Shown in pieces: positions 6,934-64,000 of a stretch of DNA of 64,000 bases. Origin of the DNA: an uncultured Pelagibacteraceae bacterium. GTDB lineage: Bacteria > Pseudomonadota > Alphaproteobacteria > Pelagibacterales > Pelagibacteraceae. Position 1 is the first letter of the stretch. Each line of letters opens with the position of its first letter. The stretch lies in contig CACDWM010000002.1 in the NCBI GenBank assembly GCA_902556505.1, positions 1 through 64,000 of the forward strand. The letters are read 5' to 3'. The position numbers and the translations under genes were made by a program. The notes under the pieces were generated by a model. It had not been told where the DNA came from, made no database searches, and saw only the letters and a list, made by a program, of their open reading frames with translations.

Positions 6934-6947
6934 ATAAGATCAATCAT

Positions 6948-7958: not shown

Positions 7959-7959
7959 T

Positions 7960-8181
7960 TTAGCAACAGCTACAGCTTTTCTTACTAGCCTTTTGTTGAT
8001 CGTCAGCTTTTCTAGTTTCTAATTCTTTTTGCTCTTCCTCAAGAACTTTTTGTTTCTTTGAAATCTTGTCTTCAAAATAATCGTAAAGAGAAGCAAATCC
8101 TAATTTAGAGGCTCTTTTTTCCTCATAATTTTTTCGCCCTTTAAGGTTTTCAATTATTTTGACTATTTCTTGGTTTTGCAT
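7960..8181 (-). CDS. Small charged coiled-coil protein with Cys-rich tail
   Basis: I do not recognise this 73-residue protein. It is mostly charged and helical, with a central heptad-like stretch (KISKKQKVLEEEQKELETRK), and ends in SKKSCSCC, a compact Cys cluster at the extreme C-terminus that could bind a metal or be lipid- or redox-modified. No signal peptide is visible. It converges on the lyase-fold gene with a one-base gap and diverges from the urease operon across about 85 bases. Because urease maturation depends on nickel, a metal-binding role is tempting, but nothing in the sequence demonstrates it. Confidence 0.55.
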   Translation of the reverse strand: MQNQEIVKIIENLKGRKNYEEKRASKLGFASLYDYFEDKISKKQKVLEEEQKELETRKADDQQKASKKSCSCC

Positions 8182-8267
8182 TCTCTCTTTGTATTTAAAA
8201 AGGCAAATAATTCAAGCTGTAAAAATTGGTAAATTATAAACAGGTTTTTTTATGTTAAGATAACGTG

Positions 8268-9077
8268 ATGAATACAAGTCAAAAAAAACTTGAAAAATCT
8301 AAAGGCAGATTAGAAATAAAAATAAAAGATCAAAATTTAGAAAAACTTTATCAACAAGGATCTTCAAAAGCTTTAATGCCAGATTTTCATGAAAATTTAA
8401 AACAATTAATGCTTATTAATACTGCTGGTGGAATTACTAGTGGAGATGAATATGACTTCAAATTTGAAATTGATAGTTCAAACCTTTGTATTTCAAATCA
8501 AGCAGCAGAAAAAATTTATAGTGGTTTTGGTAATCCTGCCAATTTAGAAATTAATGTAAATTTGTTAAACAATTCAAATTTATTTTGGCTACCTAAAGAG
8601 TTAATTTTATTTAATAATTGTAACTTAAAAAGAAAAATTAATTTTAATTTATCTAAAGATTCAAATTTACTTCTTTGTGAAAATATTATTTTTGGACGAA
8701 CCTCTATGAAGGAGGAGTTTGAAAAGGGATATTTTTCAGATTTTTGGAATATTAATATTGATAAAAAGTTAATTTATACAGAAGCTATAAATACAGGTTT
8801 ATTTGAGAAAAAATATTTGAATAGTTTTTCGACATTAAATAAAAATTCTGCAGTTGCGACAATTATTATTGTAGGAAATAAGTTTTTGAATAATGTTAAT
8901 AATCTATCTGAAACTTTAACCAACAATGAAAATACAACTTCAAATTATTCTCAATGGGATAATAAATTGATCCTAAGACTTTTATCTAAAGATAGTTATC
9001 ATCTTAAATTTGCAATTGATAAAATTTTGTCTTATTTTTTTGAAGATTCAAAGATACCAAAAGTATGGAATATATAA
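8268..9077 (+). CDS. ureD: Urease accessory protein UreD (UreH)
   Basis: First gene of a complete urease operon. The 269-residue product has the UreD signature region LMLINTAGGITSGDEYDF and SNQAAEKIYSG, with LPKELILFNNCNL and ENIIFGRTSM. UreD forms the UreD-UreF-UreG scaffold that delivers nickel to apo-urease and contains an internal metal tunnel. I prefer the ATG at 8268 over the GTG at 8265 directly before it. The stop is followed immediately by ureA. A promoter presumably lies in the 80 AT-rich bases upstream, where an AAGATAA stretch precedes the start, but no NtrC-type operator is evident. Confidence 0.9.
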   Translation: MNTSQKKLEKSKGRLEIKIKDQNLEKLYQQGSSKALMPDFHENLKQLMLINTAGGITSGDEYDFKFEIDSSNLCISNQAAEKIYSGFGNPANLEINVNLLNNSNLFWLPKELILFNNCNLKRKINFNLSKDSNLLLCENIIFGRTSMKEEFEKGYFSDFWNINIDKKLIYTEAINTGLFEKKYLNSFSTLNKNSAVATIIIVGNKFLNNVNNLSETLTNNENTTSNYSQWDNKLILRLLSKDSYHLKFAIDKILSYFFEDSKIPKVWNI

Positions 9078-9380
9078 ATGAAACTTACTCCTAGAGAAAA
9101 AGATAAACTTTTAATAAGCCTTGCAGCGCTTGTCGCTAAAAATAGATTATCAAAAGGTATAAAATTGAATTATCCAGAGGCTATTGCTTTAATAACAGAT
9201 TTTGTAGTAGAGGGAGCTAGAGAGGGAAAAAGTGTTGCAGAATTAATGGAAGCAGGAGCTCACGTTATTAAAAAAAAAGATTGTATGGACGGTATTCCAG
9301 ATATGGTCAAGGAAGTTCAAGTAGAAGCTACTTTTCCAGATGGAACTAAATTAGTAACTGTGCACAAACCTATAAGGTAA
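9078..9380 (+). CDS. ureA: Urease gamma subunit
   Basis: The 100-residue protein begins [20 protein letters not shown] and contains [28 protein letters not shown] and [24 protein letters not shown], near-consensus for the urease gamma chain throughout, at the normal length. Gamma packs with beta and alpha in the (UreABC)3 trimer that hydrolyses urea to ammonia and carbamate in the cytoplasm. It starts right after ureD without a gap and is followed eight bases later by ureB, so subunit synthesis is coupled. Confidence 0.97.
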
Positions 9381-9388
9381 TAATTATT

Positions 9389-9694
9389 ATGAAGCCAGGT
9401 GAAGTAATTACAAAAAAAGAGGAAATTAACCTAAATAAAGACTCCAAAATTACCAAAATTAAAATTTCTAATTCCGGAGATAGACCTGTGCAAGTTGGAA
9501 GCCATTATCATTTTTTTGAAACTAACGAGCATTTAGTTTTTGATCGAAAATTAGCATATGGAAAGAGATTAAATATACCTTCTGGAACTGCTGTAAGATT
9601 TGAGCCAGGTCAATCTAAAGATGTTGAGCTAATAGAAATAAATGGATTAAAAAAAATATATGGTTTCAATCAGAAAGTTATGGGCAATTTATAA
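9389..9694 (+). CDS. ureB: Urease beta subunit
   Basis: A 101-residue product of normal length, starting [13 protein letters not shown] and containing [40 protein letters not shown] and [14 protein letters not shown], all urease beta hallmarks. Beta bridges gamma and alpha in the holoenzyme and has no catalytic residues. Its stop shares a base with the ureC start (TAATG). Subunits are separate, as in most bacteria, not fused as in Helicobacter or plants. Confidence 0.97.
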
Positions 9695-11400
9695 TGGCTA
9701 AAATTTCTAGAGCAGCTTATGCAGATATGTATGGGCCTACAACAGGAGATAAAGTAAGGCTCGCAGATACTGAACTATTTATTGAGGTTGAAAATGATCT
9801 AACCATTTATGGTGAAGAAGTAAAGTTTGGTGGTGGAAAAGTAATAAGAGATGGTATGGGCCAATCTCAAATCAGTAGAGAAAAAGGAGCAGCTGATACA
9901 GTTATTACCAATGCTTTAATAGTTGATGTAAATGGAATTTATAAAGCTGATGTAGGTTTAAAGGATGGAAAAATATTTGAAATTGGTAAAGCTGGTAATC
10001 CAGATACTCAATCTAAAGTAAATATAATTATTGGTCCAGGAACAGAAATAATTGCTGGTGAAGGAAAAATTTTAACAGCAGGGGGTTTTGATAGTCACAT
10101 TCATTATATATGTCCCCAACAAATTGATGATGCATTGCACTCAGGCATTACAACTATGCTTGGAGGAGGAACTGGACCGGCTCATGGAACACTTGCAACA
10201 ACGTGTACACCCGGACCATGGCACATACAAAGAATGATTCAATCTGCTGATGGTTTTTCTATGAATTTAGCTTTTGCAGGAAAAGGAAATTCTTCATTGC
10301 CAGAAGGTCTTGAGGAACAAATTCTAGCAGGAGCTTCAGCTTTAAAATTACATGAGGATTGGGGAACCACTCCTGGAGCAATTGACAATTGTTTAAATAT
10401 TGCTGACAAAAACGATGTGCAAGTAATGATTCACACAGACACTTTAAATGAAAGTGGGTTTGTAGAAAATACTATCAAAGCAATTAACAAAAGAACTATA
10501 CATGCTTTTCATACAGAGGGTGCTGGTGGCGGACACGCGCCAGATATAATCAAAGTTTGTGGAGAAGAGTATGTTATTCCTTCTTCAACAAATCCAACCA
10601 GACCATATACCATCAATACGATAGAGGAACATTTGGATATGCTAATGGTGTGTCACCATCTCGATAAATCCATTCCAGAGGATGTTGCATTTGCTGAAAG
10701 TAGAATAAGAAGAGAAACAATAGCAGCAGAAGATATTCTCCATGACATGGGAGCCTTTTCAATTATTGCATCAGATAGTCAGGCAATGGGTAGAGTTGGA
10801 GAAGTTATAATTAGAACTTGGCAAACTGCACACAAAATGAAAGTTCAAAGAGGTAGTTTGCCTGAGGAAAAAGGAGACAATGATAACTTTAGAGTTAAAA
10901 GATATCTAGCAAAATACACAATTAATCCTGCAATAGCTCATGGAATTTCAAAACATATTGGTAGTATTGAAAAAAATAAACGTGCGGATTTAGTTTTATG
11001 GGATCCAGCATTCTTTGGTGCAAAGCCAGAAATGATATTGATAGGAGGTAGTATAGCTTGTGCGCAAATGGGAGACCCGAATGCATCAATTCCAACTCCT
11101 CAACCAGTATACACTAGACCAATGTTTTCATCATTTGGGACGTCGTTAGAGAAATCTTCAGTAATTTTCACAAGCAAACTAGCTCTTGAAAAGAATTCAT
11201 TAAAAGATGCAAGTATTAGAAAAGACTTATTACCTGTAGAAAATACAAGAGCTATTTCTAAAAAAGATATGATTTTAAATAACAAGTGTCCAAAGATTGA
11301 GGTTAATCCAGAGACATATGAAGTAAAAGCTGATGGTGAAATAATTACCTGTGAACCAGCCAAAGAACTTCCTTTGGCACAAAGATATTTTATGTTTTAG
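9694..11400 (+). CDS. ureC: Urease alpha subunit, catalytic
   Basis: The 568-residue amidohydrolase has every visible active-site element: [12 protein letters not shown] (first nickel His pair near residues 135-137), ALKLHEDWG (the Lys carbamylated to bridge two nickels), [27 protein letters not shown] (further nickel ligands), [19 protein letters not shown] (mobile flap with the catalytic His) and [14 protein letters not shown] (Asp ligand). It should be an active di-nickel urease. Tight coupling to ureB and to the ureE maturation gene (three-base gap) keeps the set in one transcript. There is no urea permease gene nearby. Confidence 0.98.
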
Positions 11401-11403
11401 CTT

Positions 11404-11847
11404 ATGGATAATTGTTTTTTAATAGTTAATAAAATAGCCAAAAATAAAGCAAAAGATCACATATCTTTATCTTATGATGAGCGATTTTTAAGAAGAAAAA
11501 AACTTGTTTCAGATAATGGTTTTGAATTTTTAGTCAATTTACCAGAGACAAAATCACTGTCAGAAAATCAAGCGTTTAGACTTCAAAGTGGAAATTTGAT
11601 TTTAATTAAAAACAAAAAAGAAAGTTTACTAGAAATAAAAGGAAAAAATTTAATGCAACTTATATGGCATATTGGAAACAGGCATATGCCATGTCAAATT
11701 GAAAAAGATAGAATTTTTATTCAGTATGACGAAGTAATAAAAAAGATGATATTAAAATTAGGAGGAAAGGTTAAGAAAGTTTTAAGACCTTTTAAACCAG
11801 AGGGAGGAGCATATGGAATTGGTAGAACCCATAGCCATAGACACTAA
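11404..11847 (+). CDS. ureE: Urease accessory protein UreE, nickel metallochaperone
   Basis: The 147-residue protein has the UreE N-terminal domain (LSYDERFLRRKKL, ETKSLSENQAFRLQSGN) and the nickel-binding domain GNRHMPCQIEKDRIFI, whose His is the conserved interface ligand. It ends with [10 protein letters not shown], a short His tail able to hold extra nickel, much shorter than the His-rich tail of Klebsiella UreE. UreE hands nickel to UreG during urease activation. The last 35 bases also encode the start of ureF in another frame. Confidence 0.93.
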   Translation: MDNCFLIVNKIAKNKAKDHISLSYDERFLRRKKLVSDNGFEFLVNLPETKSLSENQAFRLQSGNLILIKNKKESLLEIKGKNLMQLIWHIGNRHMPCQIEKDRIFIQYDEVIKKMILKLGGKVKKVLRPFKPEGGAYGIGRTHSHRH

Positions 11848-12493
11848 AATAAAAGGTAAAAAGGATTTAAAAGAATCGTTACAAATTCTTCAAACTTGGT
11901 TTTCACCATCATTTCCTGTAGGAAGTTTTTCATATTCTCATGGTTTAGAGGCAATGATTAATGATAATTTTATTAGGTCAAAAGAGGATATTTTGGATTA
12001 TTTAAAATGTATCTTAAAACATGGAACTGGTAAAAATGATGTAATTTTAATTAAACATACTTATCAAGGAGAAGAGTTAAATGAACTGGCTCTATCTCTT
12101 TGCCCATCCAAAGAAAGAAAAATTGAGTCTATTGAAATGGGTAATGCTTTTAGAAAAGTGTTAGCTGATAGTTGGGATTTTAAAATTCTTGAAAATACTG
12201 CTTATCCAATTGCAGTTGCTAAAGCAGCTAAACATTTTGATATACCACTTAACTTAACAATTGTATCTTATCTACAATCCTTTGTATCAAATCTAATAAA
12301 TGTTTGTATTAAACATATACCAATTGGGCAAAAAATTGGGCAGGACTGTATTATTAAAACGTATGAATTAATAAGAGAAATAGAAAAAGAAAGTGAAAAT
12401 TTAAATTTAGAAGACTTAGGTGGAATTTGTTTTAATAGTGATATCTACAGTATTAAGCATGAAAATTTGAAAACACGAATTTATAAGACATGA
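11813..12493 (+). CDS. ureF: Urease accessory protein UreF
   Basis: The 226-residue product has the UreF signature [19 protein letters not shown] and the helical core typical of the family, with [12 protein letters not shown] and [12 protein letters not shown] towards the end. UreF bridges UreD and UreG and gates GTP hydrolysis. The start at 11813 lies inside ureE and is preceded by a good GGAGG-like ribosome-binding site, which supports it despite a 35-base overlap. The N-terminal 30 residues before the conserved part are variable. The stop overlaps ureG as ATGA. Confidence 0.93.
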
Positions 12494-13101
12494 AAAATAT
12501 AAATGGACCTTTAAAAGTTGGAATAGGTGGACCTGTTGGTGCAGGGAAGACAAGTTTAACAGCTGAATTGTGTAAATTTTTATCAAAGAAAATTTCTATG
12601 GCTGTAATATCAAACGATATTTATACAAAAGAGGATGCTGAATTTTTAATGAAAGTTCAAGCTTTACCTCTTGAGAGAATTAAAGGAGTTGAAACAGGAG
12701 GATGCCCACATACAGCAATACGGGAAGATGCTTCAATTAATATGCTTGCTGTAGAAAATATGAAAAAAAAATTTCCTGATCTTGATTTGATTTTAATTGA
12801 GTCTGGTGGAGATAATTTAGCTGCAACTTTTAGTCCAGAATTAGTTGATTTATCTATTTATGTTATTGATGTTGGTATGGGTGGAGATATCCCTAGAAAA
12901 GGCGGCCCTGCCATTCAAAAATCAGACTTGTTAATTATTAACAAGACAGATTTAGCTCCTCATGTAGAAGTTAATCTGGAAACTATGAAAGATGATGTGA
13001 AAAAGGCTCGAAATGGTTTGCCTTATGTTTTTTGCCAAATGAAAAAGCAAATTGGCGTTGAAGACGTTGCTAAATTTTTATATTCATCAGGAGGTTTATA
13101 A
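12490..13101 (+). CDS. ureG: Urease accessory GTPase UreG
   Basis: The 203-residue SIMIBI-class GTPase has a P-loop ([13 protein letters not shown]), [14 protein letters not shown], the metal-binding [13 protein letters not shown] (CPH motif binding nickel at the dimer interface), [15 protein letters not shown] and the guanine-specificity [12 protein letters not shown]-bound dimeric UreG carries nickel into the UreD-UreF-urease complex. It ends the urease operon; the next gene follows after 27 bases and may or may not be co-transcribed. No terminator hairpin is visible. Confidence 0.97.
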
Positions 13102-13128
13102 TCAATTTATATATAATAAAGTGTTTTT

Positions 13129-14202: not shown

Positions 14203-14210
14203 AGATTAAA

Positions 14211-15488: not shown

Positions 15489-15861
15489 AGGTAACAACCC
15501 CCCAAATAAAAATATCTTGTTCTTCGTTAATTAAAATTCTGTCAGAAAACTCTTTAGATCCAGAAGTTAAAAATTTTTTATCTCGTTCTTGAACTAAAGT
15601 TTTAACTACAAGTTCATCATGAACATTAGCAATCACTGTTGAAAAGTTTTTTGGCTTTAAACTTTTATCGACAACCAATAAATCACCATCATTAATTCCA
15701 ACATCAACCATGGATTTACCTTGAACTCTGATGATGAAAGTTGCTGGAACATTTCTTATTAAATGCATGTTTAGATCAATATCTTCTTCGATATAATCAG
15801 TAGCAGGGGAAGGAAAGCCAGCGCCTGCTTTATGTAGATAATAAGGGATTGTTAGTTTCAT
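15466..15861 (-). CDS. umuD: UmuD, RecA-activated self-cleaving S24 protein
   Basis: The roughly 131-residue product starts [19 protein letters not shown], aligning with the E. coli UmuD start and its cleavage region (here G-F after KAGA). The Ser of [19 protein letters not shown] and the Lys of ELVVKTL form the Ser-Lys dyad. RecA filaments trigger cleavage to UmuD', which joins UmuC. An upstream ATG at 15891 is in frame but would place the promoter -10 element and SOS operator inside the coding region, so I choose 15861. The operator ends directly at this start codon, leaving a very short leader. Confidence 0.9.
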
Positions 15862-15908
15862 GTTCTTGTTTTGTTCTAATTTATAGACCATTTATACAAT
15901 ACACTCAA
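15862..15908 (-). promoter_or_regulatory. SOS promoter/operator of umuDC
   Basis: Read on the minus strand there is a TTGAGT (15903-15908), a 17-base spacer and TATAAA (15880-15885). The direct repeat GAAC-N7-GAAC follows at 15862-15876 (GTTC-N7-GTTC on the plus strand). That repeat is the established LexA operator of Alphaproteobacteria, here a perfect match. It would cover the transcription start and touches the umuD ATG, so LexA would block initiation and the mRNA leader must be only a few bases long. Promoter elements are read by eye. Confidence 0.75.
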
Positions 15909-16045
15909 GAGGTTGTATTTTGAGTCCGTAATTGAATCAAAAGTGAATCAAAACGTGAACATCGAAACTACATTTTGTGTGCTTGTGGATAACTCCAACC
16001 AAGGATAGTTTAAAATTCTAGTTTAATTATAAAAGGAGAAAAATA

Positions 16046-16809: not shown

Positions 16810-17175
16810 ATGAAATTAAATTGTCATTGTGGAGCTGTTGAAGCAGAAATTAATGCTACAATTAATGAATTAGCAAAAATTGTAAGATGTAATTGTTCAA
16901 TATGTAAAAGAAAAAATGCAACAATGGGAATGGTTAAAAACGAAGATTTTAAAGTTACTAAAGGACAAGATAAATTAAAACTTTATCAGTACCATACTAA
17001 AGTTGCTAACCATTACTTTTGTACTGATTGTGGAATTTATACTCATCACAATCCAAGAAGTGCACCAGCCATGACTGGTTTTAATTTAGGATGTGTCGAT
17101 GAAGTTAAAGTAGAAGATTTAAAAGAAGTAGCAAACTTCGATGGTTTAAACCATCCGATGGATCAAGAAAAATAA
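16810..17175 (+). CDS. GFA-family (glutathione-dependent formaldehyde-activating-like) protein
   Basis: The 121-residue product begins MKLNCHCGAVEAEI and carries the zinc-binding cysteines of the Gfa/DUF636 family: CHCG, CNCSICKRK and CTDCGIYTHH. The founding member, Paracoccus Gfa, was proposed to help form S-hydroxymethylglutathione from formaldehyde and glutathione, though many homologues have no proven role. Formaldehyde is expected if methylated amines such as sarcosine are oxidised, so the context fits but does not prove that function. The gene has a strong AAGGAGAT ribosome-binding site and lies eight bases before the glycerate kinase gene. Confidence 0.85.
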   Translation: MKLNCHCGAVEAEINATINELAKIVRCNCSICKRKNATMGMVKNEDFKVTKGQDKLKLYQYHTKVANHYFCTDCGIYTHHNPRSAPAMTGFNLGCVDEVKVEDLKEVANFDGLNHPMDQEK

Positions 17176-41740: not shown

Positions 41741-41770
41741 TTCACATAAACATTTTAAATGTGCTATATA
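41741..41770 (+). promoter_or_regulatory. Likely promoter of the gcv operon
   Basis: TTCACA (41741-41746) and TATATA (41765-41770), 18 bases apart, with TG-like bases ahead of the second (TGTGCTATAT), resemble a sigma-70 promoter just upstream of the glycine riboswitch. Transcription would start near 41777, right where the first aptamer begins. Read by eye. Confidence 0.5.
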
Positions 41771-41777
41771 TTTACTC

Positions 41778-41930
41778 ACGGGAGAGACTACTTTTGTAGC
41801 GCCGAAGGAGCAACCACCCCGGAAACTCTCAGGCAAAAGGACCGTACATATTAACTCTGGAAAGAGAATTATTCTCGCCGAAGGAGCAAATCTCTCAGGC
41901 ACCAAGACAGAGGGGGCAAAGAAGAGTTAA
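41778..41930 (+). promoter_or_regulatory. Tandem glycine riboswitch (two aptamers) of gcvT
   Basis: Two glycine aptamers lie in tandem. The first (about 41780-41845) has GCGCCGAAGGAGCAACC and AACTCTCAGGCAAAAGGACC. The second (about 41853-41918) has TCGCCGAAGGAGCAA and ATCTCTCAGGCACCAAGACA. These are the near-invariant core sequences of the gcvT RNA motif. The leader ends two bases before the gcvT ATG. The ribosome-binding site GAAGAG (41921-41926) lies in AGAGTTAA (41923-41930), which is exactly complementary to TTAACTCT (41851-41858) at the start of aptamer two. That pairing competes with the aptamer P1 helix CTCTG/CAGAG (41855-41859 with 41908-41912), consistent with a translational on-switch. 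Confidence 0.95.
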
Positions 41931-41931
41931 T

Positions 41932-43035
41932 ATGGAAATTAAAAAAACATCGCTAAACAAACTTCATCAAAGTAACAACGCTAAGTTTGTTGAATTTGCG
42001 GGATACGAAATGCCCATTCAGTATAGCAAAGGTATTATTGAAGAGCATAAATTCACAAGATCGAATTCTGGAATATTTGATGTATCTCATATGGGTCAAT
42101 TATTTATATATGGCGATGAAAGCTTGACAGAAGAATTAGAAAAGATTTTTCCATTAGATTTAAAAAATCTTAAACAAAACTGCTCAAAGTATAGTTTTTT
42201 AATGAACGAGGATGCTGGAATTTATGATGATTTAATTATTACTAAAATAGAGGAGGGGTATTTAATTATCTTAAATGCTGCATGCAAAGATAAAGATTTT
42301 GAGATTTTATCTAATTTACTAGGTTCAAAATTTAAAATGAATTTAGATAACAATAGATCTTTAATAGCAATTCAAGGACCTAAATCTGTTGAAATTTTAA
42401 ACTCAATTATAAATGGGGTTGATCAACTAAATTTTATGACAGGAAATTGGTTTGATTCTGATAATCAAAAATTATTTGTCACAAGATCAGGTTATACAGG
42501 GGAAGATGGATTTGAAATTTCAATTTCTAACGATAAAGCTGAAAAATTCGTTGAAAATTTAATAGAAAAGGGAGCACAACTTATAGGACTTGGGGCAAGA
42601 GATACCTTGAGATTAGAAGCTGGATTATGTTTGTATGGTCACGAATTAGATATTAACAAAACACCAGTTGAGGCAAACCTTAGATGGGCAATCTCAAAAT
42701 CTAGATTATCAAAAGGAGGTTTTATTGGATCGAAAAAAATTATGAACCAAATGCAAGATGGAGCAAGTCAAATAAGAGTAGGGATTAAACCCGAGGGTAG
42801 ATTGATTGCTAGAGAAAAAACTAAAATATTTGATGATACAGATACACAAATCGGTGAGATAACTAGTGGCACGTTTGGACCAAGTGTAAATGGTCCTATA
42901 GCGATGGGTTATGTTAATAAAAAGTTTTCAAAAGTTGATACTAAAATTTTGCTTGAGGTAAGAGGGAAAAAACATCCAGCAAATGTTTGCGCATTACCAT
43001 TTTATAAAAAAAATTACGTGAAAGGAGTAAATTAA
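41932..43035 (+). CDS. gcvT: Glycine cleavage system T protein (aminomethyltransferase)
   Basis: The 367-residue protein has [96 protein letters not shown] and [12 protein letters not shown]. It transfers the methylene group from the aminomethyl-lipoyl H protein to tetrahydrofolate, releasing ammonia. It is the first gene of gcvTHP and is directly controlled by the riboswitch. The GcvT family also contains dimethylglycine- and DMSP-demethylating proteins, but the length, the riboswitch and the gcvH/gcvP neighbours argue for true GcvT. Confidence 0.95.
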
Positions 43036-43415
43036 TGAGTGAGGTAAAATTTTCAAAAGAACATGAGTGGATCACTTTAGAGGGAGATGTAGCCACAATA
43101 GGAATTACAAAACATGCAACAGAAATGCTTGGCGACATCGTTTTTGCAGAACTTCCTGAAAAAGGATCTAATGTTGAAAAAGATGGTACCGCAGGAGTAG
43201 TAGAGTCTACGAAAGCTGCTAGTGATGTTTATACTCCAGTTAGTGGTGAAGTAGTAGATACTAATCAAGCTATTGTAGATGATCCATCTAAAATAAATGA
43301 AGATCCAGAGGGTTCAGCATGGTTTTTTAAACTTAAAATGAAAGATCAATCTGAATTGGATAGTCTTATGAACAAAGAAGAATACGATAAATTTGCAAAG
43401 GAGAGTGCTAGCTAA
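43035..43415 (+). CDS. gcvH: Glycine cleavage system H protein
   Basis: The 126-residue lipoyl carrier has [39 protein letters not shown], the lipoylation site [21 protein letters not shown] (Lys in ESTKA) and WFFKLKMKD. It shuttles the aminomethyl group from P to T protein. It is joined to gcvT by a one-base overlap (TAATG) and to gcvP in the same way. The lipoate-attachment and L-protein genes are not in the window. Confidence 0.97.
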
Positions 43416-46285
43416 TGTTACATAATTCTCAAAAAGATTTTTTAAAAAGACACATTGGACCTTCAGATGAAGATCAAAATAAAATGCTTAAGGAACTTAA
43501 TTACAAATCACTAGATGATTTAATCAAAAGTACAGTTCCAGAAAAGATCCAATTGAAAGATGAATTAAATATTGGTGAGTCTAATTCAGAATATGAAGCA
43601 TTAAGAAAATTAAAAGCAATTTCTAAGAAAAATCAAATTTACTCTAACTTTATAGGGATGGGTTATTATGGCACTTATACGCCATATGTAATTTTAAGAA
43701 ATATTTTAGAAAATCCAGGTTGGTACACTTCTTATACACCCTACCAACCCGAGGTAGCTCAAGGAAGATTGGAAATGCTGCTTAATTTTCAACAAATGAT
43801 AGTTGATTTCACAGGAATGGATATTGCAAATGCATCTTTATTGGATGAAGGAACAGCAGCTGCAGAAGCAATGGGATTAAGTCATAGATTAAATAAAAAG
43901 GATAGCAATTTAGTCTTTGTCTCAGAAAATTGTCACCCACAAACAATTGATGTAATCCAAACAAGAGCAGAACCAATGGGATTAAAAGTACTTGTTGGTA
44001 ATGAAGATAAAGTATTAGATCAATTGAAAGAAGATTTAGTTTGTGGCATATTGCAATATCCGGGAACATTAGGAGATATAAAAGATCCTAGCGAAGCAAT
44101 AAGTAAAATTCATAAAAAAAATGGTAAATCAATTTTAGCTTGTGATTTATTAGCACTTGCTAAGTTAAAAACACCAAGAGAACTAGGAGCAGATATTGCT
44201 GTAGGAAGCTCTCAAAGATTTGGAATACCAATGGGCTACGGTGGACCTCATGCAGCCTTCTTTGCAACTAAAGACGAATATAAAAGATCTATGCCAGGAA
44301 GAATTGTCGGTGTCTCTGTTGATAGACATGGAAACAAAGCATACAGATTATCATTACAAACTAGGGAACAACATATAAGAAGAGATAAGGCTACAAGTAA
44401 TATTTGTACTGCCCAAGCCTTATTAGCAATTGTGTCAGCAGCATATGCTATTTATCATGGTCCAGAGGGTATCCGGACTATTTCTGAGAGAGTTTCTCAA
44501 TTAGCTAAAAACTTTGCAGATAAATTAAAACAATCAGGATATGAAATTTATTCAGATCATTTCTTTGATACGGTTACAATCGTCACTAAAGATAAAACTG
44601 ATCAAATCTACAAAAATGCTTTGGATCAAAAGGTAAACATTAGAAGAGTAAATTCTGAAATGTTGGCAGTTTCTTTTGATGAAAAGAAAAATGTTTATAG
44701 AGTAAATCAATTGTTGAAAATTTTTAATGCAGCTGAATCGATTAAAAAAGAAGATCCAACTGTAAGTTTACCTAATTTACCAAAAAATTTATTAAGAACT
44801 TCAAAATATTTAGAACATCCTGTTTTTAATTCATATCACTCAGAAACTGAGATGCTTAGATATTTAAAAAAGTTAGAAGATAAAGATATAGCTCTGAATA
44901 GAACTATGATTGCACTTGGTTCATGTACTATGAAATTAAATGCTACCGCAGAAATGATACCTATTTCGTGGAGAGAATTAGCAGAGCCTCATCCATTTGT
45001 ACCTATTGAGCAGATGGAAGGATATAGAGATTTATTCACTGATCTTAAAAATTGGCTTAGATCAATTACTGGTTTTTCTGGTGTTTCACTTCAACCAAAT
45101 GCAGGCGCCCAAGGCGAATATGCGGGATTAATGGTTATTAGAAAATATCATTTAGATAGAGGTGAGGAAAATAGAAATATATGTTTAATACCAAGTTCAG
45201 CACATGGAACCAATCCTGCTAGTGCACAAATGGTTGGAATGAAAGTTGTCGTTGTCGATTGTGATAAAGAAGGAAATGTTGATTTTGAAGATTTAAAGAA
45301 AAAAGCAGAAATGCATTCTGAAAATCTTGGAGCATTAATGGTCACTTATCCGTCTACTCATGGAGTATTTGAGGAAAAAATTACAGATATATGTGAATTA
45401 ATTCATAAACACGGTGGCCAAGTTTATATGGATGGTGCAAATTTAAATGCGCTTGTTGGTATAGCAAGACCTGGAAATTTTGGTCCAGATGTTTGTCACA
45501 TAAACTTACACAAAACATTTTGTATTCCACATGGTGGCGGAGGACCAGGAATGGGACCAATTGCATGTAAAAGACATTTACAAGTTTATTTGCCTAATCA
45601 TCCAGTTGTTAAGGACTGTGGACCTGCTACAGGAATAGGAGCAGTTTCAGCAGCACCTTGGGGAAGTTCAAGTATTTTATCAATTTCCTGGATGTATATT
45701 AAAATGATGGGTTCTGAAGGTTTAAAATTAGCTACTCAAATTGCAATATTAAATGCAAATTATATAGCTCATAGACTTAAAGATCATTACCCAATTCTTT
45801 ATAAAGGTTCAAACGGTAATGTAGCTCATGAATGTATTATTGACATTCGATCTATTAAAACTGAAACAGGGATTACTGAAGAAGATATAGCTAAAAGATT
45901 GATCGATTATGGTTTTCATGCACCAACAATGTCATGGCCAGTAGCAGGCACAATGATGATTGAACCAACTGAAAGTGAAAGCTTGTCCGAACTAGATAGA
46001 TTTTGTGATACTTTGATTAGCATTAAATCAGAAATAGATATGATCAATTCAGGAAAATTTGATAAAGTTGATAATCCAATTAAAAATGCACCTCATACAG
46101 ATATTGAATTAGCTTCAGATGAATGGAATCATAAATATTCAAGAGAGCAAGCCGCGTATCCTGCAAAATTCTTAAAAGCAAATAAATTTTGGCCTCCGGT
46201 TGCAAGAGTTGATAACGTATACGGAGATAAAAATATTTTTTGTACTTGTCCAAGTATGGATGAGTTTAAAGAAGATGCAGCATAA
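43415..46285 (+). CDS. gcvP: Glycine dehydrogenase (decarboxylating), P protein
   Basis: The 956-residue single-chain P protein begins DFLKRHIGPSDEDQNKML and contains GMGYYGTYTPYVILRNILENPGW-type motifs, FVSENCHPQTIDVIQTRA, the PLP site CHINLHKTFCIPHGGGGPG (Lys in LHKTF), FHAPTMSWPVAGTMMIEPTESES and a C-terminus with REQAAYPAKFL. It decarboxylates glycine and loads the aminomethyl group onto H. Some Alphaproteobacteria use this fused form rather than two subunits. Confidence 0.97.
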   Translation: MLHNSQKDFLKRHIGPSDEDQNKMLKELNYKSLDDLIKSTVPEKIQLKDELNIGESNSEYEALRKLKAISKKNQIYSNFIGMGYYGTYTPYVILRNILENPGWYTSYTPYQPEVAQGRLEMLLNFQQMIVDFTGMDIANASLLDEGTAAAEAMGLSHRLNKKDSNLVFVSENCHPQTIDVIQTRAEPMGLKVLVGNEDKVLDQLKEDLVCGILQYPGTLGDIKDPSEAISKIHKKNGKSILACDLLALAKLKTPRELGADIAVGSSQRFGIPMGYGGPHAAFFATKDEYKRSMPGRIVGVSVDRHGNKAYRLSLQTREQHIRRDKATSNICTAQALLAIVSAAYAIYHGPEGIRTISERVSQLAKNFADKLKQSGYEIYSDHFFDTVTIVTKDKTDQIYKNALDQKVNIRRVNSEMLAVSFDEKKNVYRVNQLLKIFNAAESIKKEDPTVSLPNLPKNLLRTSKYLEHPVFNSYHSETEMLRYLKKLEDKDIALNRTMIALGSCTMKLNATAEMIPISWRELAEPHPFVPIEQMEGYRDLFTDLKNWLRSITGFSGVSLQPNAGAQGEYAGLMVIRKYHLDRGEENRNICLIPSSAHGTNPASAQMVGMKVVVVDCDKEGNVDFEDLKKKAEMHSENLGALMVTYPSTHGVFEEKITDICELIHKHGGQVYMDGANLNALVGIARPGNFGPDVCHINLHKTFCIPHGGGGPGMGPIACKRHLQVYLPNHPVVKDCGPATGIGAVSAAPWGSSSILSISWMYIKMMGSEGLKLATQIAILNANYIAHRLKDHYPILYKGSNGNVAHECIIDIRSIKTETGITEEDIAKRLIDYGFHAPTMSWPVAGTMMIEPTESESLSELDRFCDTLISIKSEIDMINSGKFDKVDNPIKNAPHTDIELASDEWNHKYSREQAAYPAKFLKANKFWPPVARVDNVYGDKNIFCTCPSMDEFKEDAA

Positions 46286-51283: not shown

Positions 51284-52387
51284 ATGGATGATGTTGTAGT
51301 AATTGGTGGTGGAATAATAGGGACGGCAACTGCTTATTTTTTATCCAAAGAGGGCAGAAAAGTTAAAGTTATTGAAAGGGATCCTACTTATAAAACAGCT
51401 TCATTCCCATTATCTCTAGGTGGTTTTAGAAGGCAATTTTTCCAAAAAGAAAATATTTTATTAGGAAAATTTGCAAGAGAATTTATTTTCCAAATACCAG
51501 AATTATTAAAAACAGAAAAAAACCCTAACCCAACAGCCAGTATGGTAACCAATGGATATCTTTTAATGTTTGGTCCTGAACATGCTCAAGAACAATATAG
51601 AGCATTAGAAAATCATAAAGTATGTGATGCAGGAACAAAAAATATTAAAGGGTCAGAATTATCTAAGGTTTTCCCTTATGTGAATAGCGAAGGGATAGAG
51701 ACAGCAACTTTTACGGATAATCAAAGTGAAGGATGGATTGATCCATTTATGTTTCATAGCGCTCTTAAAAGTAAAGCAATAGAGCTTGGAGCAGAATTTA
51801 TTAAAGGTGAAGTTAAAAGTATTTCTGAAATAAATGCTAAAACAATAGTTTCCGCAGCTGGTTGTTGGACAAAGGAATTGTTAGAAGATATTCCTGTTGT
51901 TCCTCAAAAGCACACTGTGTTTAGAGTAAAATGTCCAACATATATAAAGGAGATGCCACTCAGTGGAGACTTAACAACTGGCGTTTATTGGAGACCAGAA
52001 GGAGGGGAATATTTAGCAGGATCACCTATTTCTGTATTTGATGCAGATGATTTGGAACCAGCTTGGAATGATTTTGAGGAATTAGTTTGGCCAGCTCTTG
52101 CTAAGAGAATACCTGCCTTTGAAGAATTAAAGTTAACTGGTGGATGGGCAGGTTACTATGATTGTAATAGATTAGATAATAATGCAGTTGTTGGTAAGCA
52201 TCCAAAATATGACAATGTTTACATGGCTTCTGGATTTACGGGCCGGGGATTAATGCAAGCACCAGGTATCGGTAGAGCCTTAACTGAATTAATTACAACA
52301 GGATCATACCAAACAATTGATATAAGTGATTTTGCAGTTGAGAGAGTTTTGGATAAAACTGCTAGGCCAGAGCCCTACGTTCTATAA
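51284..52387 (+). CDS. DAO-family FAD-dependent oxidoreductase
   Basis: The 367-residue protein starts MDDVVVIGGGIIGTATAYFL, then VKVIERDPTYKTASFPLSLGG. It has the D-amino-acid/sarcosine-oxidase fold: EGWIDPFMFHSALKSKAIELG, TIVSAAGCWT, GVYWRPEGGEYLAGSP, GWAGYYDCNRLDNNAVVGKHP and MASGFTGRGLMQAPGIGRALTELI. Relatives include FOXRED1, sarcosine oxidases and dimethylglycine or D-amino-acid dehydrogenases. The oxidised substrate cannot be assigned; sarcosine is attractive given creatinase and gcvTHP nearby. The start is the ATG three bases after the tspO stop; a longer frame from 51230 would overlap tspO and adds unconserved residues. Confidence 0.85.
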   Translation: MDDVVVIGGGIIGTATAYFLSKEGRKVKVIERDPTYKTASFPLSLGGFRRQFFQKENILLGKFAREFIFQIPELLKTEKNPNPTASMVTNGYLLMFGPEHAQEQYRALENHKVCDAGTKNIKGSELSKVFPYVNSEGIETATFTDNQSEGWIDPFMFHSALKSKAIELGAEFIKGEVKSISEINAKTIVSAAGCWTKELLEDIPVVPQKHTVFRVKCPTYIKEMPLSGDLTTGVYWRPEGGEYLAGSPISVFDADDLEPAWNDFEELVWPALAKRIPAFEELKLTGGWAGYYDCNRLDNNAVVGKHPKYDNVYMASGFTGRGLMQAPGIGRALTELITTGSYQTIDISDFAVERVLDKTARPEPYVL

Positions 52388-53839: not shown

Positions 53840-56608
53840 TTAACTAACTTCAGCTTGATTTTCTTTTGGTTTTACTTCTGTTTTAAATTGATTAGAGATT
53901 TTTTGCACTTCAACAGAAGATACTTTGTATTCTGCACACATTGTTTCTTCATCTTTACCATGACCTGTAACCATATTAACCATATGTTCTGGGAAATGGA
54001 ACGTAGTAAACACAATTCCTTCTTTAACTTTATCTGTAACTTCAACTTTAAGTGCAACCTCACCTCTGCCAGAATAAAGTCTTCCGATATCACCAGTATT
54101 TAGATCTCTATAAGCTGCATCTTTAGGATGAATTAATAAAACATCTTCATCAACAATATTTATATTCTTTGTTCTTCTAGTCATTGTTGCTGCATTGTAA
54201 TGTTGTAAAACTCTACTAGTTGTTAAAATCAAAGGATAGTCTTTTTGATTAGCTTCTATTTCTGATGATTCTTTCCAATCAAAGTTTTTTAGTCGACCTT
54301 TACCTAATTTAAATGTTTCTGTATGTAAAATTTTTGTATCAGTTCCATCTTCTTGGACTGGCCACTGTAATCCTAATTTTCCGAGTCTCTCTCTAGTAAC
54401 TCCCTTAAAGAAAGGAACGATATCAGCAATTTCAGCTAGAACTTGATCTGCATCATAAGTTGGCTGATCAAATCCTAATTTCTGCATCATCTCGGTTACA
54501 ATTAATCCATCAGGTTTAGTGCCTGGTAGAGGAGGTACAGCTCTGTTTACTCTTTGAATTCTTCTCTCAGTGTTTGTAAAAGTTCCATCTTTTTCTAAGA
54601 ACGTTGTACCTGGCAGAACAACAGTTGCTAATTTTGCTGTTTCACTCATAAATATTTCTTGAACAACTAAAAGTTCTAAAGAGTTCATAGCTTCAATTAC
54701 ATGAGCACTATTAGGATCTGTTTGAACAATATCTTCTCCAATGATCCATAAACCTTTTAATTCCTTGTTTATTGCAGCTTCAAACATTTGAGGAATTTTT
54801 AATCCTGGCTTAGTTGGGTGAGTTACCCCGTATTTTTGTGTGTAGAATTCTTGATGTTTTTCATCAGCTACAGGAAAATAACCAGCACCTTGGTGAGGCT
54901 GACATCCCATATCTGCTGCACCTTGAACATTGTTTTGACCTCTTAAAGGATTAACCCCAACTCCTTTTCTTCCAATGTTTCCAGTGATCATTGCTAGATC
55001 TGCAATTAACATTACTGTTTTAGATCCTTGTTCGTGTTCAGTAACTCCTAAACCATGGAACTCCATTGAATTTCTTGCAGTAGCATATGCAATTGCTGCT
55101 TCTTTAACTAATTGTTTATCTACACCAGCTACTTTTGCTAAATGATCAACATCTTGTCTTTCAATTTCTTTTAAGAAATTATCAAAACCTTCAGTTCTAT
55201 CTCTAACAAAATCTGCATTATAAAGTTTTGATTTGATAATAAAGTGCAACATCATATTTAGAACTGCAACATTAGTTCCTGGTCTTAGTTTAATATGATA
55301 ATCAGCAAGTTTCGCTAGTTCAGTTGTAACTGGATCAAGCACGATTAATTTTTTACCTTTCATCACTTGCTGTTTTATTTTTGCACCTGTTACAGGATGA
55401 GCATTAGTTGGATTAGCTCCAATTACCAAAAATAAATCTGCATGATAAATATCTTCTGTAGAGTTAGTTGCTGCCCCAGTCCCAAAAGTTTGTTGCATTC
55501 CCCAAGCTGTTGGTGAATGACAAATTCTTGCACAACAATCTACGCTGTTAGTTCCCACAGCAGCTCTAATCATTTTTTGAAAAACATAATTTTCTTCATT
55601 AGTACATCTTGCAGAAGAAATTCCAGCAAAGGCATCTGGACCATTATCTTTTGTAATTCTATTCATTTCTTTTTTAATGAATTCATAAGCTTCATCCCAC
55701 GAAGCTTCTTCAAACTTTCCATCTCTTTTAATCAAAGGTGTTTTTAATCTGTCCGGATGATCATAAAAACTAAATGCATATCTTCCTTTAATACAAGTAT
55801 GACCAGCATTTACCTCAGTTTGTTTTGGAGTATCTATTGCAACAACTTTATCATCTTTTATTGATGCTTCTAAATTACATCCAACACCACAGTATGAACA
55901 AGTTGTTCTAACTTTTTTATCTACAGCTGCAGATTTAGATTGAAAAACATCTGAAATTGCATCTGTTGGGCATGTATGTGCACATGCACCGCAAGATACA
56001 CATGAACTATCTCCAAACATCATATCATTATCAGTTGTTATTCTAGATTCAAAACCTCTTCCGCTCATTGTTAGTACAAATGAACCTTGAATTTCATCAC
56101 AAGCTCTGACACATCTTCCACAATTAATACAATTGTCTAAATTCATTCTCATGTAATCGTGAGAAGTATCTCTTGGTATACCTTTGTGCTGTTTAGGACT
56201 GTTGTATCTGTGATCAGCAACTCCTAAATCGTTTGCTACTGTTTGTAATTCACAATTATTATTTACCTCACAAGTATCACATTCCATTGGATGGTCAGTT
56301 AAAACCAATTCAACAATATTTTTTCTTAGATTTGTTAAAGCTTCATTTGAAGTAAAGATATGTTGGTTTTCAGCAACTGGAGTATGACAAGATGCGACCA
56401 CTCTTGTTGGACCATCTTTTTCTAAAGCAACTTCTACAGAGCAAACTCTGCAAGCACCATAAGGAGCTAGGTTTGGATCATCACATAATGTAGGTACTTT
56501 TTTTTCACCTACATAGCTTTTTACAAATTTTAAAATAGACGTGTGTTTAGGACCAATTTCGTATGGTTTTCCATCAATATAAGCAATTTTTCTTTTTTCA
56601 GAGCTCAT
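53840..56608 (-). CDS. fdsA: NAD-linked formate dehydrogenase, molybdenum catalytic subunit
   Basis: In order, the 922-residue protein has an N-terminal [2Fe-2S] domain (LAPYGACRVCSVEV), a His/Cys-ligated cluster region (HPMECDTCEVNNNCELQ), two ferredoxin clusters (NCINCGRCVRACDEIQ, SCVSCGACAHTCPTDAI), the domain-I cluster CSYCGVGCNLE and the catalytic NSVDCCARICHSPTAWG. In the last motif Cys (the one before HSPT) replaces the selenocysteine of E. coli FdhF. A C-terminal molybdopterin-dinucleotide domain follows (RVLQHYNAATMTRRTKN). It oxidises formate to CO2 in the cytoplasm and passes electrons to the NADH-forming subunit encoded upstream, with which it shares one base. Confidence 0.94.
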   Translation of the reverse strand: MSSEKRKIAYIDGKPYEIGPKHTSILKFVKSYVGEKKVPTLCDDPNLAPYGACRVCSVEVALEKDGPTRVVASCHTPVAENQHIFTSNEALTNLRKNIVELVLTDHPMECDTCEVNNNCELQTVANDLGVADHRYNSPKQHKGIPRDTSHDYMRMNLDNCINCGRCVRACDEIQGSFVLTMSGRGFESRITTDNDMMFGDSSCVSCGACAHTCPTDAISDVFQSKSAAVDKKVRTTCSYCGVGCNLEASIKDDKVVAIDTPKQTEVNAGHTCIKGRYAFSFYDHPDRLKTPLIKRDGKFEEASWDEAYEFIKKEMNRITKDNGPDAFAGISSARCTNEENYVFQKMIRAAVGTNSVDCCARICHSPTAWGMQQTFGTGAATNSTEDIYHADLFLVIGANPTNAHPVTGAKIKQQVMKGKKLIVLDPVTTELAKLADYHIKLRPGTNVAVLNMMLHFIIKSKLYNADFVRDRTEGFDNFLKEIERQDVDHLAKVAGVDKQLVKEAAIAYATARNSMEFHGLGVTEHEQGSKTVMLIADLAMITGNIGRKGVGVNPLRGQNNVQGAADMGCQPHQGAGYFPVADEKHQEFYTQKYGVTHPTKPGLKIPQMFEAAINKELKGLWIIGEDIVQTDPNSAHVIEAMNSLELLVVQEIFMSETAKLATVVLPGTTFLEKDGTFTNTERRIQRVNRAVPPLPGTKPDGLIVTEMMQKLGFDQPTYDADQVLAEIADIVPFFKGVTRERLGKLGLQWPVQEDGTDTKILHTETFKLGKGRLKNFDWKESSEIEANQKDYPLILTTSRVLQHYNAATMTRRTKNINIVDEDVLLIHPKDAAYRDLNTGDIGRLYSGRGEVALKVEVTDKVKEGIVFTTFHFPEHMVNMVTGHGKDEETMCAEYKVSSVEVQKISNQFKTEVKPKENQAEVS

Positions 56609-61938: not shown

Positions 61939-62844
61939 ATGTTAGAGTTAAGAAATCCAAGAATAGCCATTCCTGTTGTACTTTTTGCCGGTCTATTATG
62001 GTCGTTTGGCCCATTAGTAGTTCGATACATGGATAATCCTCAAATGGTACCTTGGCAGTATATTTTTGGTAGAGGTTTAACAATTTTCATCTTATTAAAC
62101 CTTTATTTATTTTTCGAGGAAGGAAAAAATTTTTACAAAAACTATTATAAAATAGGTTTATCTGGAGTAATCGGTGGATCTGGATTGGGGATCGCTATGA
62201 TTACATTTATTTATTCAATTACAAATACTAGCGCTGCAGTTACTTTGCTTTGTTTGGCAGCAATGCCATTTTTTACAGCATTATTGGCATTTTTATTTTT
62301 AAAAGAAAAAATTTCTCTTAATGTGTGGATATCAATAATAATTGCAACAGTTGGTATTATTATTATGGCACTAGGAAACACCGGTGAAAAATCACTAATT
62401 GGTTTCGTATTTGGTTTAACTTCTTCAATTGGTTTCTCAGTTTTTTCTGTAACTCTAAGATGGAGAAAAGAAACACCAAAATTCACAACTGTAGCTTTTG
62501 CAGGTTTCTTTTGTTTTGTGTTTGCAACAATTATGATTTTATCAAACAATTTAGTTTTTTTTTCATCTAGCTATAACGGAGCTTTGTTTTCTTTGCACGG
62601 GACACTAGTTTGTTTTGGTTTGATTTTATATTCAATAGGATCTAAAGCGATACCAGCAGCAGAATTGACTTTATTATCTTTAACTGAAGTTGTAGGAGGA
62701 ATTTTTTGGGTTTGGCTGCCATTATTTGGAATTAATGAAGCACCATCCACAAATACTATAATAGGCGGTTTTTTTCTTTTCGTATCTATATTTTATTACA
62801 GTTTGATAATGAGATGGAACAAAAGATACATAGCATTAAATTAA
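61939..62844 (+). CDS. EamA-family (DMT) transporter next to creatinase
   Basis: The 301-residue protein has about ten membrane helices in two EamA repeats, with GLLWSFGPLVVRYMDNPQ at the start and SAAVTLLCLAAMPFFTALLAFLFLKEKIS and PAAELTLLSLTEVVGGIFWVWLPLFGINEAP ending the repeats. It is a secondary carrier for an unknown metabolite. The stop is one base from the creatinase ATG, so the two genes are almost certainly one transcript and the carrier may move creatine, sarcosine or a related compound. It starts 49 bases after moeA. Confidence 0.85.
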   Translation: MLELRNPRIAIPVVLFAGLLWSFGPLVVRYMDNPQMVPWQYIFGRGLTIFILLNLYLFFEEGKNFYKNYYKIGLSGVIGGSGLGIAMITFIYSITNTSAAVTLLCLAAMPFFTALLAFLFLKEKISLNVWISIIIATVGIIIMALGNTGEKSLIGFVFGLTSSIGFSVFSVTLRWRKETPKFTTVAFAGFFCFVFATIMILSNNLVFFSSSYNGALFSLHGTLVCFGLILYSIGSKAIPAAELTLLSLTEVVGGIFWVWLPLFGINEAPSTNTIIGGFFLFVSIFYYSLIMRWNKRYIALN

Positions 62845-62845
62845 T

Positions 62846-64000
62846 ATGGAACGACCAGATTTTTTTGAACTTAAAAATGGTGAGAAAGTAAAATTACCTT
62901 TCACAGATAAAGAGTATAATGATCGAGTAAGTAAACTTAGATCAGCGATGGATCAAAATGGTCTTGATATGGTTATCCTAACCTCAATGCATAACGTTGC
63001 ATATTACACAGGTTTTATTTATTGTTCTTTTGGAAGACCATACGGATGTGTGATCACTCAAAATAAAATCTCAACAATTTCAGCTAATATTGATGCAAGC
63101 CAGCCATGGCGTAGATCTCATTGTGATAACGTTATTTACACTGATTGGAAAAGAGATAATTTTTTAAGAGCCATTGTTTCAATTATTGGGAGAGATGAAC
63201 CTCCAAAAAAAATTGGAATAGAAAATGATCATGTCACTTTAGATATGCGAGAAAAAATAGGGTCTATTTTTACTTTCTCTGTGTTTAGCGATGTTTCAAA
63301 AGATCTAATGAAACTTAGAATGATTAAATCAAACGAAGAAATTGAGATCATTACAAATGGTGCAAGAATTGCAGACATTGGTGGTGAAGAAATAGTTAAA
63401 AATATAAGAGAAGATAATACAGAGATCGAAGTAGCAATAGCAGCAAGAGATAGAATGGAAAGAGAGATTGTTAAAAGCTATCCAGGCGCAGAGTACATGG
63501 ATACTTGGGTATGGTTTCAATCTGGTATCAATACAGATGGAGCTCACAATCCAAAGACTAATAGAAAATTAGTTAAAGGAGATATTTTATCTTTAAATAC
63601 TTTTCCAATGATCTCAGGATACTACACTGCACTAGAGCGAACTTTATTTTTAGATCATGCTGATGATGCTTCACTTAAAGCTTGGGAAGCAAATGTTAAA
63701 GTTCATAAACGTGGATTAGAATTGATTAAACCAGGTGTTAAATGTTCAGACATTTGTCATGAGCTAAATGAATTATTTGCTGAACTTGGTTATCTTCAGT
63801 ACCGAACTTTTGGCTACGGTCATTCATTTGGTATGCTTTCACACTTTTATGGAAGAGAAGCAAGTTTAGAATTAAGAGAAGATATTGATACTGTTCTTGA
63901 GGAAAATATGGTCGTGTCGATGGAGCCAATGATAATGATCCCAGAGGGTAATCCTGGTGCAGGTGGATATAGAGAACACGATATTTTGGTGATTGGTAAA
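62846..64000 (+). CDS. Creatinase (creatine amidinohydrolase), 3'-truncated by window edge
   Basis: At least 385 residues are encoded; the frame is open at the window end. The start is LKNGEKVKLPFTDKEYNDR, followed by NVAYYTGFIYCSFGRPYGCV, QPWRRSHCDNVIYTDWKRDN, IKSNEEIEIITNGARIADIGG, DTWVWFQSGINTDGAHNP (catalytic His), YYTALERTLFLDH (Glu), RTFGYGHSFGMLSH, VVSMEPMIMIPEG (Glu) and GGYREHDI. These follow Pseudomonas creatinase nearly block by block, including the INTDGAHNP loop and the other residues that bind creatine. The enzyme has the metallopeptidase M24 fold but needs no metal, and splits creatine into sarcosine and urea. Xaa-Pro peptidase or DddP-like identity is less likely because their metal-ligand pattern is absent. 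Confidence 0.87.
   Translation, partial: MERPDFFELKNGEKVKLPFTDKEYNDRVSKLRSAMDQNGLDMVILTSMHNVAYYTGFIYCSFGRPYGCVITQNKISTISANIDASQPWRRSHCDNVIYTDWKRDNFLRAIVSIIGRDEPPKKIGIENDHVTLDMREKIGSIFTFSVFSDVSKDLMKLRMIKSNEEIEIITNGARIADIGGEEIVKNIREDNTEIEVAIAARDRMEREIVKSYPGAEYMDTWVWFQSGINTDGAHNPKTNRKLVKGDILSLNTFPMISGYYTALERTLFLDHADDASLKAWEANVKVHKRGLELIKPGVKCSDICHELNELFAELGYLQYRTFGYGHSFGMLSHFYGREASLELREDIDTVLEENMVVSMEPMIMIPEGNPGAGGYREHDILVIGK

Follow-up and report, generated by a model that had tools for sequence, protein, structure and literature searches.

A creatinase and an amidinotransferase homologue exchange places in SAR11 gene clusters that may salvage guanidino compounds

The DNA analysed here (the window) is a 64,000-nt stretch from an uncultured Pelagibacteraceae bacterium, and it ends inside what appears to be the middle gene of a SAR11 operon consisting of an EamA carrier, a creatinase and an amidinotransferase (AGAT) homologue. 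The steady gene partner of creatinase is this AGAT homologue, not urease, and creatinase and AGAT can replace each other in one operon slot. With a probability of roughly 0.4, AGAT serves as an alternative enzyme to creatinase that forms no urea and passes the amidino group to ornithine, with the EamA-creatinase-AGAT operon and an EutA-EutD-transporter unit as its genetic setting.

Results

Genomes and loci compared

Genomes were sampled at the level of the family (118 genomes), the genus (201) and the class (190), and many of them were incomplete. The source genome of the window, G000, comprises 1.05 Mb in 43 contigs and was 73.6% complete. The named loci were the best 80 of 579 confirmed matches, 91-100% identical, and represent close relatives only. 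Neighbouring genes in G+C-rich loci (e.g., the AGAT of L142 and the creatinase of L127) were read by tblastn.

The gene at the window end is almost certainly a creatinase

The three genes of the apparent operon are as follows.
61939..62844, plus strand: EamA-family carrier that opens the apparent operon (Pfam EamA, 64 bits)
62846..64000, plus strand, running past the window end (complete frame G000:C2:62846-64063): creatinase (creatine amidinohydrolase), 405 aa
G000:C2:64069-65184, plus strand, outside the window: AGAT homologue, 371 aa

The call of a creatinase, made in the initial annotation from the sequence alone, was borne out. In a phmmer search of the PDB, the frame matched the creatinases 1chm, 7yto and 1kp0 over its full length (498, 491 and 454 bits, respectively), and the runner-up enzyme was a prolidase with 85 bits. 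Identity to the Pseudomonas creatinase 1CHM was 57.5% over 381 aligned positions. All nine residues of what we take to be the active-site list (F62, R64, H232, Y258, E262, H324, R335, E358 and H376; 1CHM numbering), which presumably includes those that hold the carboxylate and the guanidinium of creatine, were identical in 21 of 21 aligned creatinase rows, the window gene included. At the five positions that we assume to be the M24 metal ligands, two Asp and one Glu are replaced; when aligned with prolidase 1wy2, the window protein was found to have Asn, Ala and His at these three places, as does 1chm. Searches of the frame against NCBIfam returned ten other M24 families, all below cut-off, with no creatinase model among the hits. 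Based on the profile scores, PDB scores and active-site residues, we rejected an ectoine hydrolase, a peptidase or another M24 enzyme as the identity of this gene. Creatinase converts creatine and water to sarcosine and urea, and the strong homology and intact active site lead us to infer this reaction for the window protein. The gene thus resembles the known creatinases of EC 3.5.3.3 (1CHM, 7YTO and 1KP0) in its full-length match, its active-site residues and its loss of M24 ligands, and is unlike them in having EamA and AGAT as operon partners and in being known here from sequence.

An AGAT homologue is the steady partner of creatinase

A single base lies between the end of the EamA-type carrier gene and the creatinase start, and the AGAT homologue starts five bases after the creatinase stop, 69 bases beyond the window. 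Among the best 80 of 579 matches, EamA was found immediately 5′ of creatinase in all 80 loci and AGAT immediately 3′ in 77; two of the three exceptions lie at a contig edge, and the third (L075) has a 561-aa TPR-like gene in between. In the family sample, creatinase and AGAT were side by side in 12 of the 12 genomes having both, and in the genus sample AGAT was present in every one of the 68 creatinase genomes and in 165 of 201 genomes overall. AGAT also occurred in 97 of the 133 genus genomes that had no creatinase match, and must therefore serve some purpose independent of creatinase. An EamA-family gene adjoined AGAT in all eight creatinase-free genomes examined (of nine) that belong to the window's genus in the family sample, which makes creatinase a presence/absence gene between EamA and AGAT. 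Median dN/dS values of 0.040 for creatinase (80 loci), 0.026 for AGAT (73 loci) and 0.034 for EamA (77 loci) showed that the three genes are under purifying selection, which is strong for creatinase and AGAT.

The AGAT homologue scored 296 bits with human AGAT, as compared to 223 with SxtG, 209 with HsvA and 178 with the inosamine-phosphate type, and was 42.8% identical to the human enzyme over 367 positions. It shares with human GATM (1JDW) all eight catalytic and arginine-binding residues (Asp170, Asp254, His303, Asp305, Arg322, Ser354, Ser355 and Cys407). The acceptor flap is different: it reads DPYPI, with Tyr and Ile in place of human Asn300 and Met302, versus DPNPM in human AGAT, DMHPM in AmtA and DIFPS in CyrA. 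Because this flap departs from that of the glycine-using human enzyme, we name the protein an AGAT homologue, not AGAT (the short form is kept for the gene), and its acceptor or donor may differ. CyrA accepts glycine despite having Phe and Ser at the flap positions (PMC3684758, PMC4887976), so a DPYPI flap would be compatible with glycine. Unlike human GATM and the bacterial relatives CyrA/AoaA, AmtA, HsvA, SxtG and StrB1, the SAR11 homologue adjoins a creatine-degrading enzyme and carriers and is not part of a cluster for synthesis.

Second AGAT copies were observed in G083 and G088 (L089 and L099, respectively). In these, Tyr replaces Ser354 and the neighbours are GMC-oxidoreductase-, TauD- and EamA-like genes; they probably act on another substrate.

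Creatinase and AGAT replace each other before EutA

In other SAR11 genera, the gene order consisted of a slot gene followed by an EutA-like gene, an EutD-like gene (ectoine-hydrolase family) and a polyamine-type ABC transporter. The slot before EutA, seen in 13 loci, held creatinase in five (G068, G077, G087, G096 and G104), AGAT in seven (G002, G008, G016, G050, G092, G112 and G116, the last on a contig that ends inside EutA) and both in one (G010, in the order AGAT, creatinase, EutA). A luciferase-like gene and three more genes, at most one gene away from the slot, made up the left flank both in creatinase loci (G068 and G104) and in AGAT loci (G002, G112, G116 and G057, where the contig ends just past AGAT). 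Likewise, a periplasmic-binding-protein gene lies left of the slot in G050 (AGAT) and, with an offset of one gene, in G087 and G042 (creatinase). Neither creatinase nor AGAT was found in the EutA slot of the EutD genomes G014 and G102. In G068, a 578-aa gene adjoins creatinase.

Phylogenetic analysis placed the SAR11 creatinases in one clade (99/98) that contains a clade of EutA-locus genes (100/99). The creatinases do not divide cleanly by locus type, because the creatinase of G010 stands beside EutA and groups with the EamA-locus genes. The AGAT tree did not resolve the order of the locus types.

The association with EutD extends beyond the slot itself. With EutD counted as present at E values up to 1e-100, the 118 family genomes comprised 38 with EutD and 39 with creatinase or AGAT; 36 had both and 77 had neither (Fisher 2e-24, uncorrected for kinship). 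Five genomes were discordant, two having EutD without either gene and three having creatinase or AGAT without EutD, namely G010 and G042, whose contigs end there, and G038, which is 65% complete. When the window's genus was left out, 17 genomes had both, 3 + 2 were discordant and 77 had neither (Fisher 3e-14, likewise uncorrected for kinship). The window's genus, like G006, G011, G020 and G046, has the EutD locus apart from the creatinase/AGAT locus, so this association reflects more than physical linkage. Among same-genus genomes of the family sample, EutD was present in 19 of 19 and creatinase in 10.

EutD-like genes scored 451 and 463 of 613 bits with the EutD model and an EutA-like gene 201 of 318 bits with the EutA model, all below cut-off; DoeA 6twk was matched with 345 bits. 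The score of 451 bits, short of the NCBIfam equivalog cut-off, is that of the M24 gene at G000:C3:125238 in the source genome, whose best solved relative is DoeA, and the binding protein beside EutD there matched the polyamine (spermidine/putrescine)-binding protein 8jv1 with 581 bits. The SAR11 genes are therefore similar to the eutA and eutD/doeA genes of ectoine utilisation in matching the EutA and EutD models and DoeA 6twk, and unlike them in their sub-cut-off scores and their pairing with creatinase or AGAT. In the source genome, EutA-EutD lies directly 5′ of a polyamine-type ABC transporter at L006:5493-11978 (G000:C3).

Outside SAR11, an EutA-like gene was found near creatinase in four of eight other alphaproteobacterial loci (G270, G139, G158 and G292) and a four-gene ABC set in three of the eight (G270, G139 and G151). 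Three members of the family to which G270 and G139 belong carry AGATs with the same flap, at 79-81% identity. In G514, AGAT is beside the ABC set and EutA and follows a ureohydrolase gene that scores above the agmatinase cut-off; the AGAT loci of G497 and G472 had no EutA or ABC neighbour within about 9 kb. Downstream of its AGAT, G277 has an EutA-like, an EutB-like and a cyclodeaminase-like gene, of which the cyclodeaminase-like one exceeds the PRK08291 cut-off, and a SoxB-like gene further on.

Urease is a variable island

The initial annotation had joined creatinase, a urease operon, a sarcosine-oxidising DAO gene, a formaldehyde-handling GFA gene, glycine-induced gcvTHP and a formate dehydrogenase into an almost complete route from creatine to ammonia. 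The features concerned are as follows.
8265..13101, plus strand: urease cluster ureDABCEFG (NCBIfam UreA, UreB, UreC and UreG; Pfam UreD and UreF)
16810-17175: GFA-type gene (Pfam GFA, 57 bits)
41769-41854, plus strand: glycine riboswitch (Rfam, 63.5 bits)
41932-46285, plus strand: gcvT-gcvH-gcvP (NCBIfam)
51284..52387, plus strand: DAO-fold oxidoreductase (Pfam DAO, 171 bits)
53840-56608, minus strand: formate dehydrogenase alpha subunit (NCBIfam)

The urease operon is indeed there: UreA, UreB, UreC and UreG scored above the NCBIfam cut-offs and UreD and UreF above those of Pfam, and UreE matched UreE models below cut-off (best, 173 of 237 bits). The alpha subunit of formate dehydrogenase was confirmed, as were gcvT, gcvH and gcvP with the riboswitch upstream; gcvTHP is a general glycine-cleavage unit that would act on glycine of any origin. 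For two further genes, the family was confirmed and the proposed role was not supported by the curated models. The DAO gene scored 57.1 of 479.65 bits with soxA_mon, 38.5 of 529.45 with soxB and at best 78.9 of 250.8 with ThiO, and was rejected as a sarcosine oxidase. The GFA-type gene belongs to the Pfam GFA family and scored 22 of 249 bits with the NCBIfam formaldehyde-activating model, by which we rejected it as a formaldehyde handler. Relatives of the DAO gene were found in near-locus stretches of four creatinase-free genomes (L087, L088, L091 and L093) and of one with creatinase (L075).

In the family sample (n = 118), creatinase was found in 22 genomes and urease in two, both of which have creatinase. 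The corresponding counts were 68, 15 and 11 (both) for the genus (n = 201) and 17, 53 and nine (both) for the class (n = 190). The co-occurrence of creatinase and urease expected by the initial annotation was seen as a mild enrichment: creatinase occurred in 11 of 15 urease genomes of the genus versus 57 of 186 others (one-sided Fisher 0.0014, uncorrected for kinship and genome size), in four of four versus five of 25 among genus genomes at least 90% complete (Fisher 0.005, uncorrected for both), and the class without G000 gave 8/16 versus 44/173 (Fisher 0.039, uncorrected for both). Against it, 57 of the 68 creatinase genomes of the genus had no urease match. Six of the 11 genus genomes that have both carry creatinase and urease on a single contig, 48-51 kb apart, so one missing stretch can remove both. 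On one flank the urease genes adjoin DUF1800, DUF1501 and lyase-like genes, and on the other umuCD (window positions 4349-15891), and this site is empty in the single-contig relatives G063, G017 and G035. Urease is therefore a variable island about 50 kb from creatinase; as a conserved partner it was rejected on the grounds of its distribution and the three empty sites. The genes of the route from creatine to ammonia exist, yet they do not form a genomic unit, and the route by way of urease is weakly supported. G000 itself can use urea, and its urease may process urea derived from creatine.

UreC was 97-99% identical among the 15 urease genomes of the genus, whereas the creatinase of one of them, G693, was 90% identical, which suggests a recent horizontal spread of the urease island. 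G277, a 1.6-Mb genome of another family of the class, encodes a UreC (G277:C3:142659-144362) that is 87% identical to that of the window and an AGAT that is 61% identical; it is a possible exchange partner.

Discussion

SAR11 ranks with the most abundant cell types of the ocean, and the rarity of urease in the genomes sampled (2/118 of the family, 15/201 of the genus) makes their use of guanidino nitrogen a real question. The AGAT enzyme family is known from the synthesis of creatine and of natural products, and a role in salvage, if true, would be a breakdown use of that family. The slot exchange suggests a role for AGAT, a gene found in 165 of 201 genus genomes, and leads to a specific, testable prediction of how SAR11 cells would obtain nitrogen and glycine from guanidino compounds.

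Creatine as a SAR11 substrate, and its conversion to glycine, was proposed in 2013 (PMC3686209), and the use of creatine, sarcosine and urea has been proposed for Ca. Indicimonas of AEGEAN169 (PMC11366302). Creatine use by SAR11 is thus already known as a proposal, and what merits further work is the creatinase/AGAT module. The 2013 paper resembles our account in naming a SAR11 gene cluster creatinase, with creatine as the substrate. It differs in that the excerpted account of its creatinase cluster contains no amidinotransferase and describes the cluster as core to subgroup 1a, whereas the window-type creatinase was present in only 10 of 19 same-genus genomes; as the EutD-like M24 gene was present in all 19, the cluster reported in 2013 may represent a different M24 gene. 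Within the open-access papers searched, no paper pairing an amidinotransferase with SAR11 was found. In one metabolite survey, creatine per carbon was higher in field samples than in any culture (PMC8269262).

The gene identities, their order, the slot exchange, the co-occurrence and the purifying selection are as observed above, and from them we infer which substrates are used, in which direction AGAT works and what EamA, EutA, EutD and the ABC transporter do. That creatinase and AGAT alternate in a single slot, beside a transporter, speaks for AGAT acting on the same imported compound or a similar one. In the mechanism that we propose, creatinase would split imported creatine to sarcosine and urea. 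The AGAT cysteine would remove the amidino group from guanidinoacetate (or possibly creatine) and pass it to ornithine, which would form arginine and either glycine or sarcosine without any release of urea. EutA, EutD and the polyamine-type ABC transporter would form an uptake and processing unit. Amidinotransfer is reversible; AmtA makes arginine from homoarginine and ornithine, and guanidinoacetate is a stated amidino donor for human AGAT and CyrA, although AmtA refuses it (PMC4887976). No report of creatine as an amidino donor was found in the literature excerpts, so guanidinoacetate is the likelier donor. A urea-free AGAT route would fit the observation that agmatine slows urease-less SAR11 strains, for which the authors suspect urea (PMC8437039), as well as the common glycine/serine auxotrophy in the family (PMC12636525). 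Several points count against salvage. The DPYPI flap may go with another acceptor or donor, AmtA refuses guanidinoacetate, and AGAT is also present in 97 genus genomes that lack a creatinase match; the EutD-side binding protein of G000 matches a polyamine binder, not a known creatine binder; and, of the three AGAT genomes from the other alphaproteobacterial family, G497 and G472 showed no EutA or ABC neighbour within about 9 kb. The wider claim that the SAR11 AGAT homologue is catabolic, moving the amidino groups of imported guanidino compounds (guanidinoacetate, creatine or a relative) to ornithine with their nitrogen kept, and that creatinase and AGAT stand in for each other within a single widespread guanidino-salvage module with EutA, EutD and a Pot-like or EamA carrier, is a shade more tentative than the mechanism itself.

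The route of the initial annotation, in which urease splits the urea released by creatinase, sarcosine gives glycine and a C1 unit, and AGAT is unrelated, may well carry part of a creatine-urea flow in G000, where creatinase and urease are both present. It also agrees with the over-representation of creatinase among urease genomes and with the sarcosine-oxidising genes reported in SAR11 subgroup Ia (PMC3160333). As a general explanation we nevertheless consider it somewhat unlikely, given the 57 of 68 creatinase genomes without a urease match, the distance and empty sites of the urease island, the DAO and GFA genes that miss their cut-offs, and a recent survey that connects purine breakdown with the urease found in one SAR11 genus (PMC12636525). 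The AGAT homologue could also work in the textbook direction, converting arginine and glycine (or another amine) to ornithine and guanidinoacetate (or another guanidino compound) that creatinase or a neighbour would then hydrolyse, in arginine breakdown or in the synthesis of a guanidino solute. Its closeness to the human enzyme of creatine synthesis, the cyclodeaminase-like gene near AGAT in G277, which could use ornithine, and the ureohydrolase that precedes AGAT in G514 are in keeping with that direction. It would, however, spend glycine, which is commonly needed in the family (PMC12636525), and creatinase and AGAT are mutually exclusive in 12 of 13 slot loci, a poor fit to consecutive steps; we regard this direction as improbable.

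It is also unlikely, in our judgement, that creatine and guanidinoacetate go unused and that the cells instead live on some other compound (guanidino, amidine or polyamine) that the Pot-like transporter imports and on which EutD and AGAT act. Such a substrate would be consistent with the co-occurrence of EutD-like and Pot-like genes with creatinase or AGAT, the match to a spermidine/putrescine-binding protein and an AGAT flap unlike the known ones, but creatinase keeps all nine active-site residues, presumed creatine carboxylate and guanidinium holders included, and AGAT scores higher with the human enzyme (296 bits) than with HsvA of the polyamine type (209 bits). Finally, the EutA slot and the place after EamA might be variable sites that gather unrelated genes, with the creatinase/AGAT pattern arising from chance and kinship. 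Other genes do vary there (the 561-aa TPR-like gene of L075 and the 578-aa gene of G068), and the EutA slots of G014 and G102 lack both creatinase and AGAT. Recurrence of the same gene pair at two loci (EamA and EutA), the presence of creatinase and AGAT near a similar transporter in another alphaproteobacterial family and the strong purifying selection on both genes make this very unlikely, and the salvage mechanism with AGAT as the urea-free alternative remains our preferred reading.

Additional observations

Two weakly related polysaccharide-lyase-like genes flank the urease island. Rfam searches yielded a 5′ ureB sRNA match of 86 bits at 9851-10124 on the minus strand, opposite the ureC coding strand; we set this candidate aside, because it lies on the ureC coding sequence and probably reflects coding conservation. 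A match to the SAR11_0636 sRNA was found at 15911-16000 on the plus strand, with 115.5 bits.
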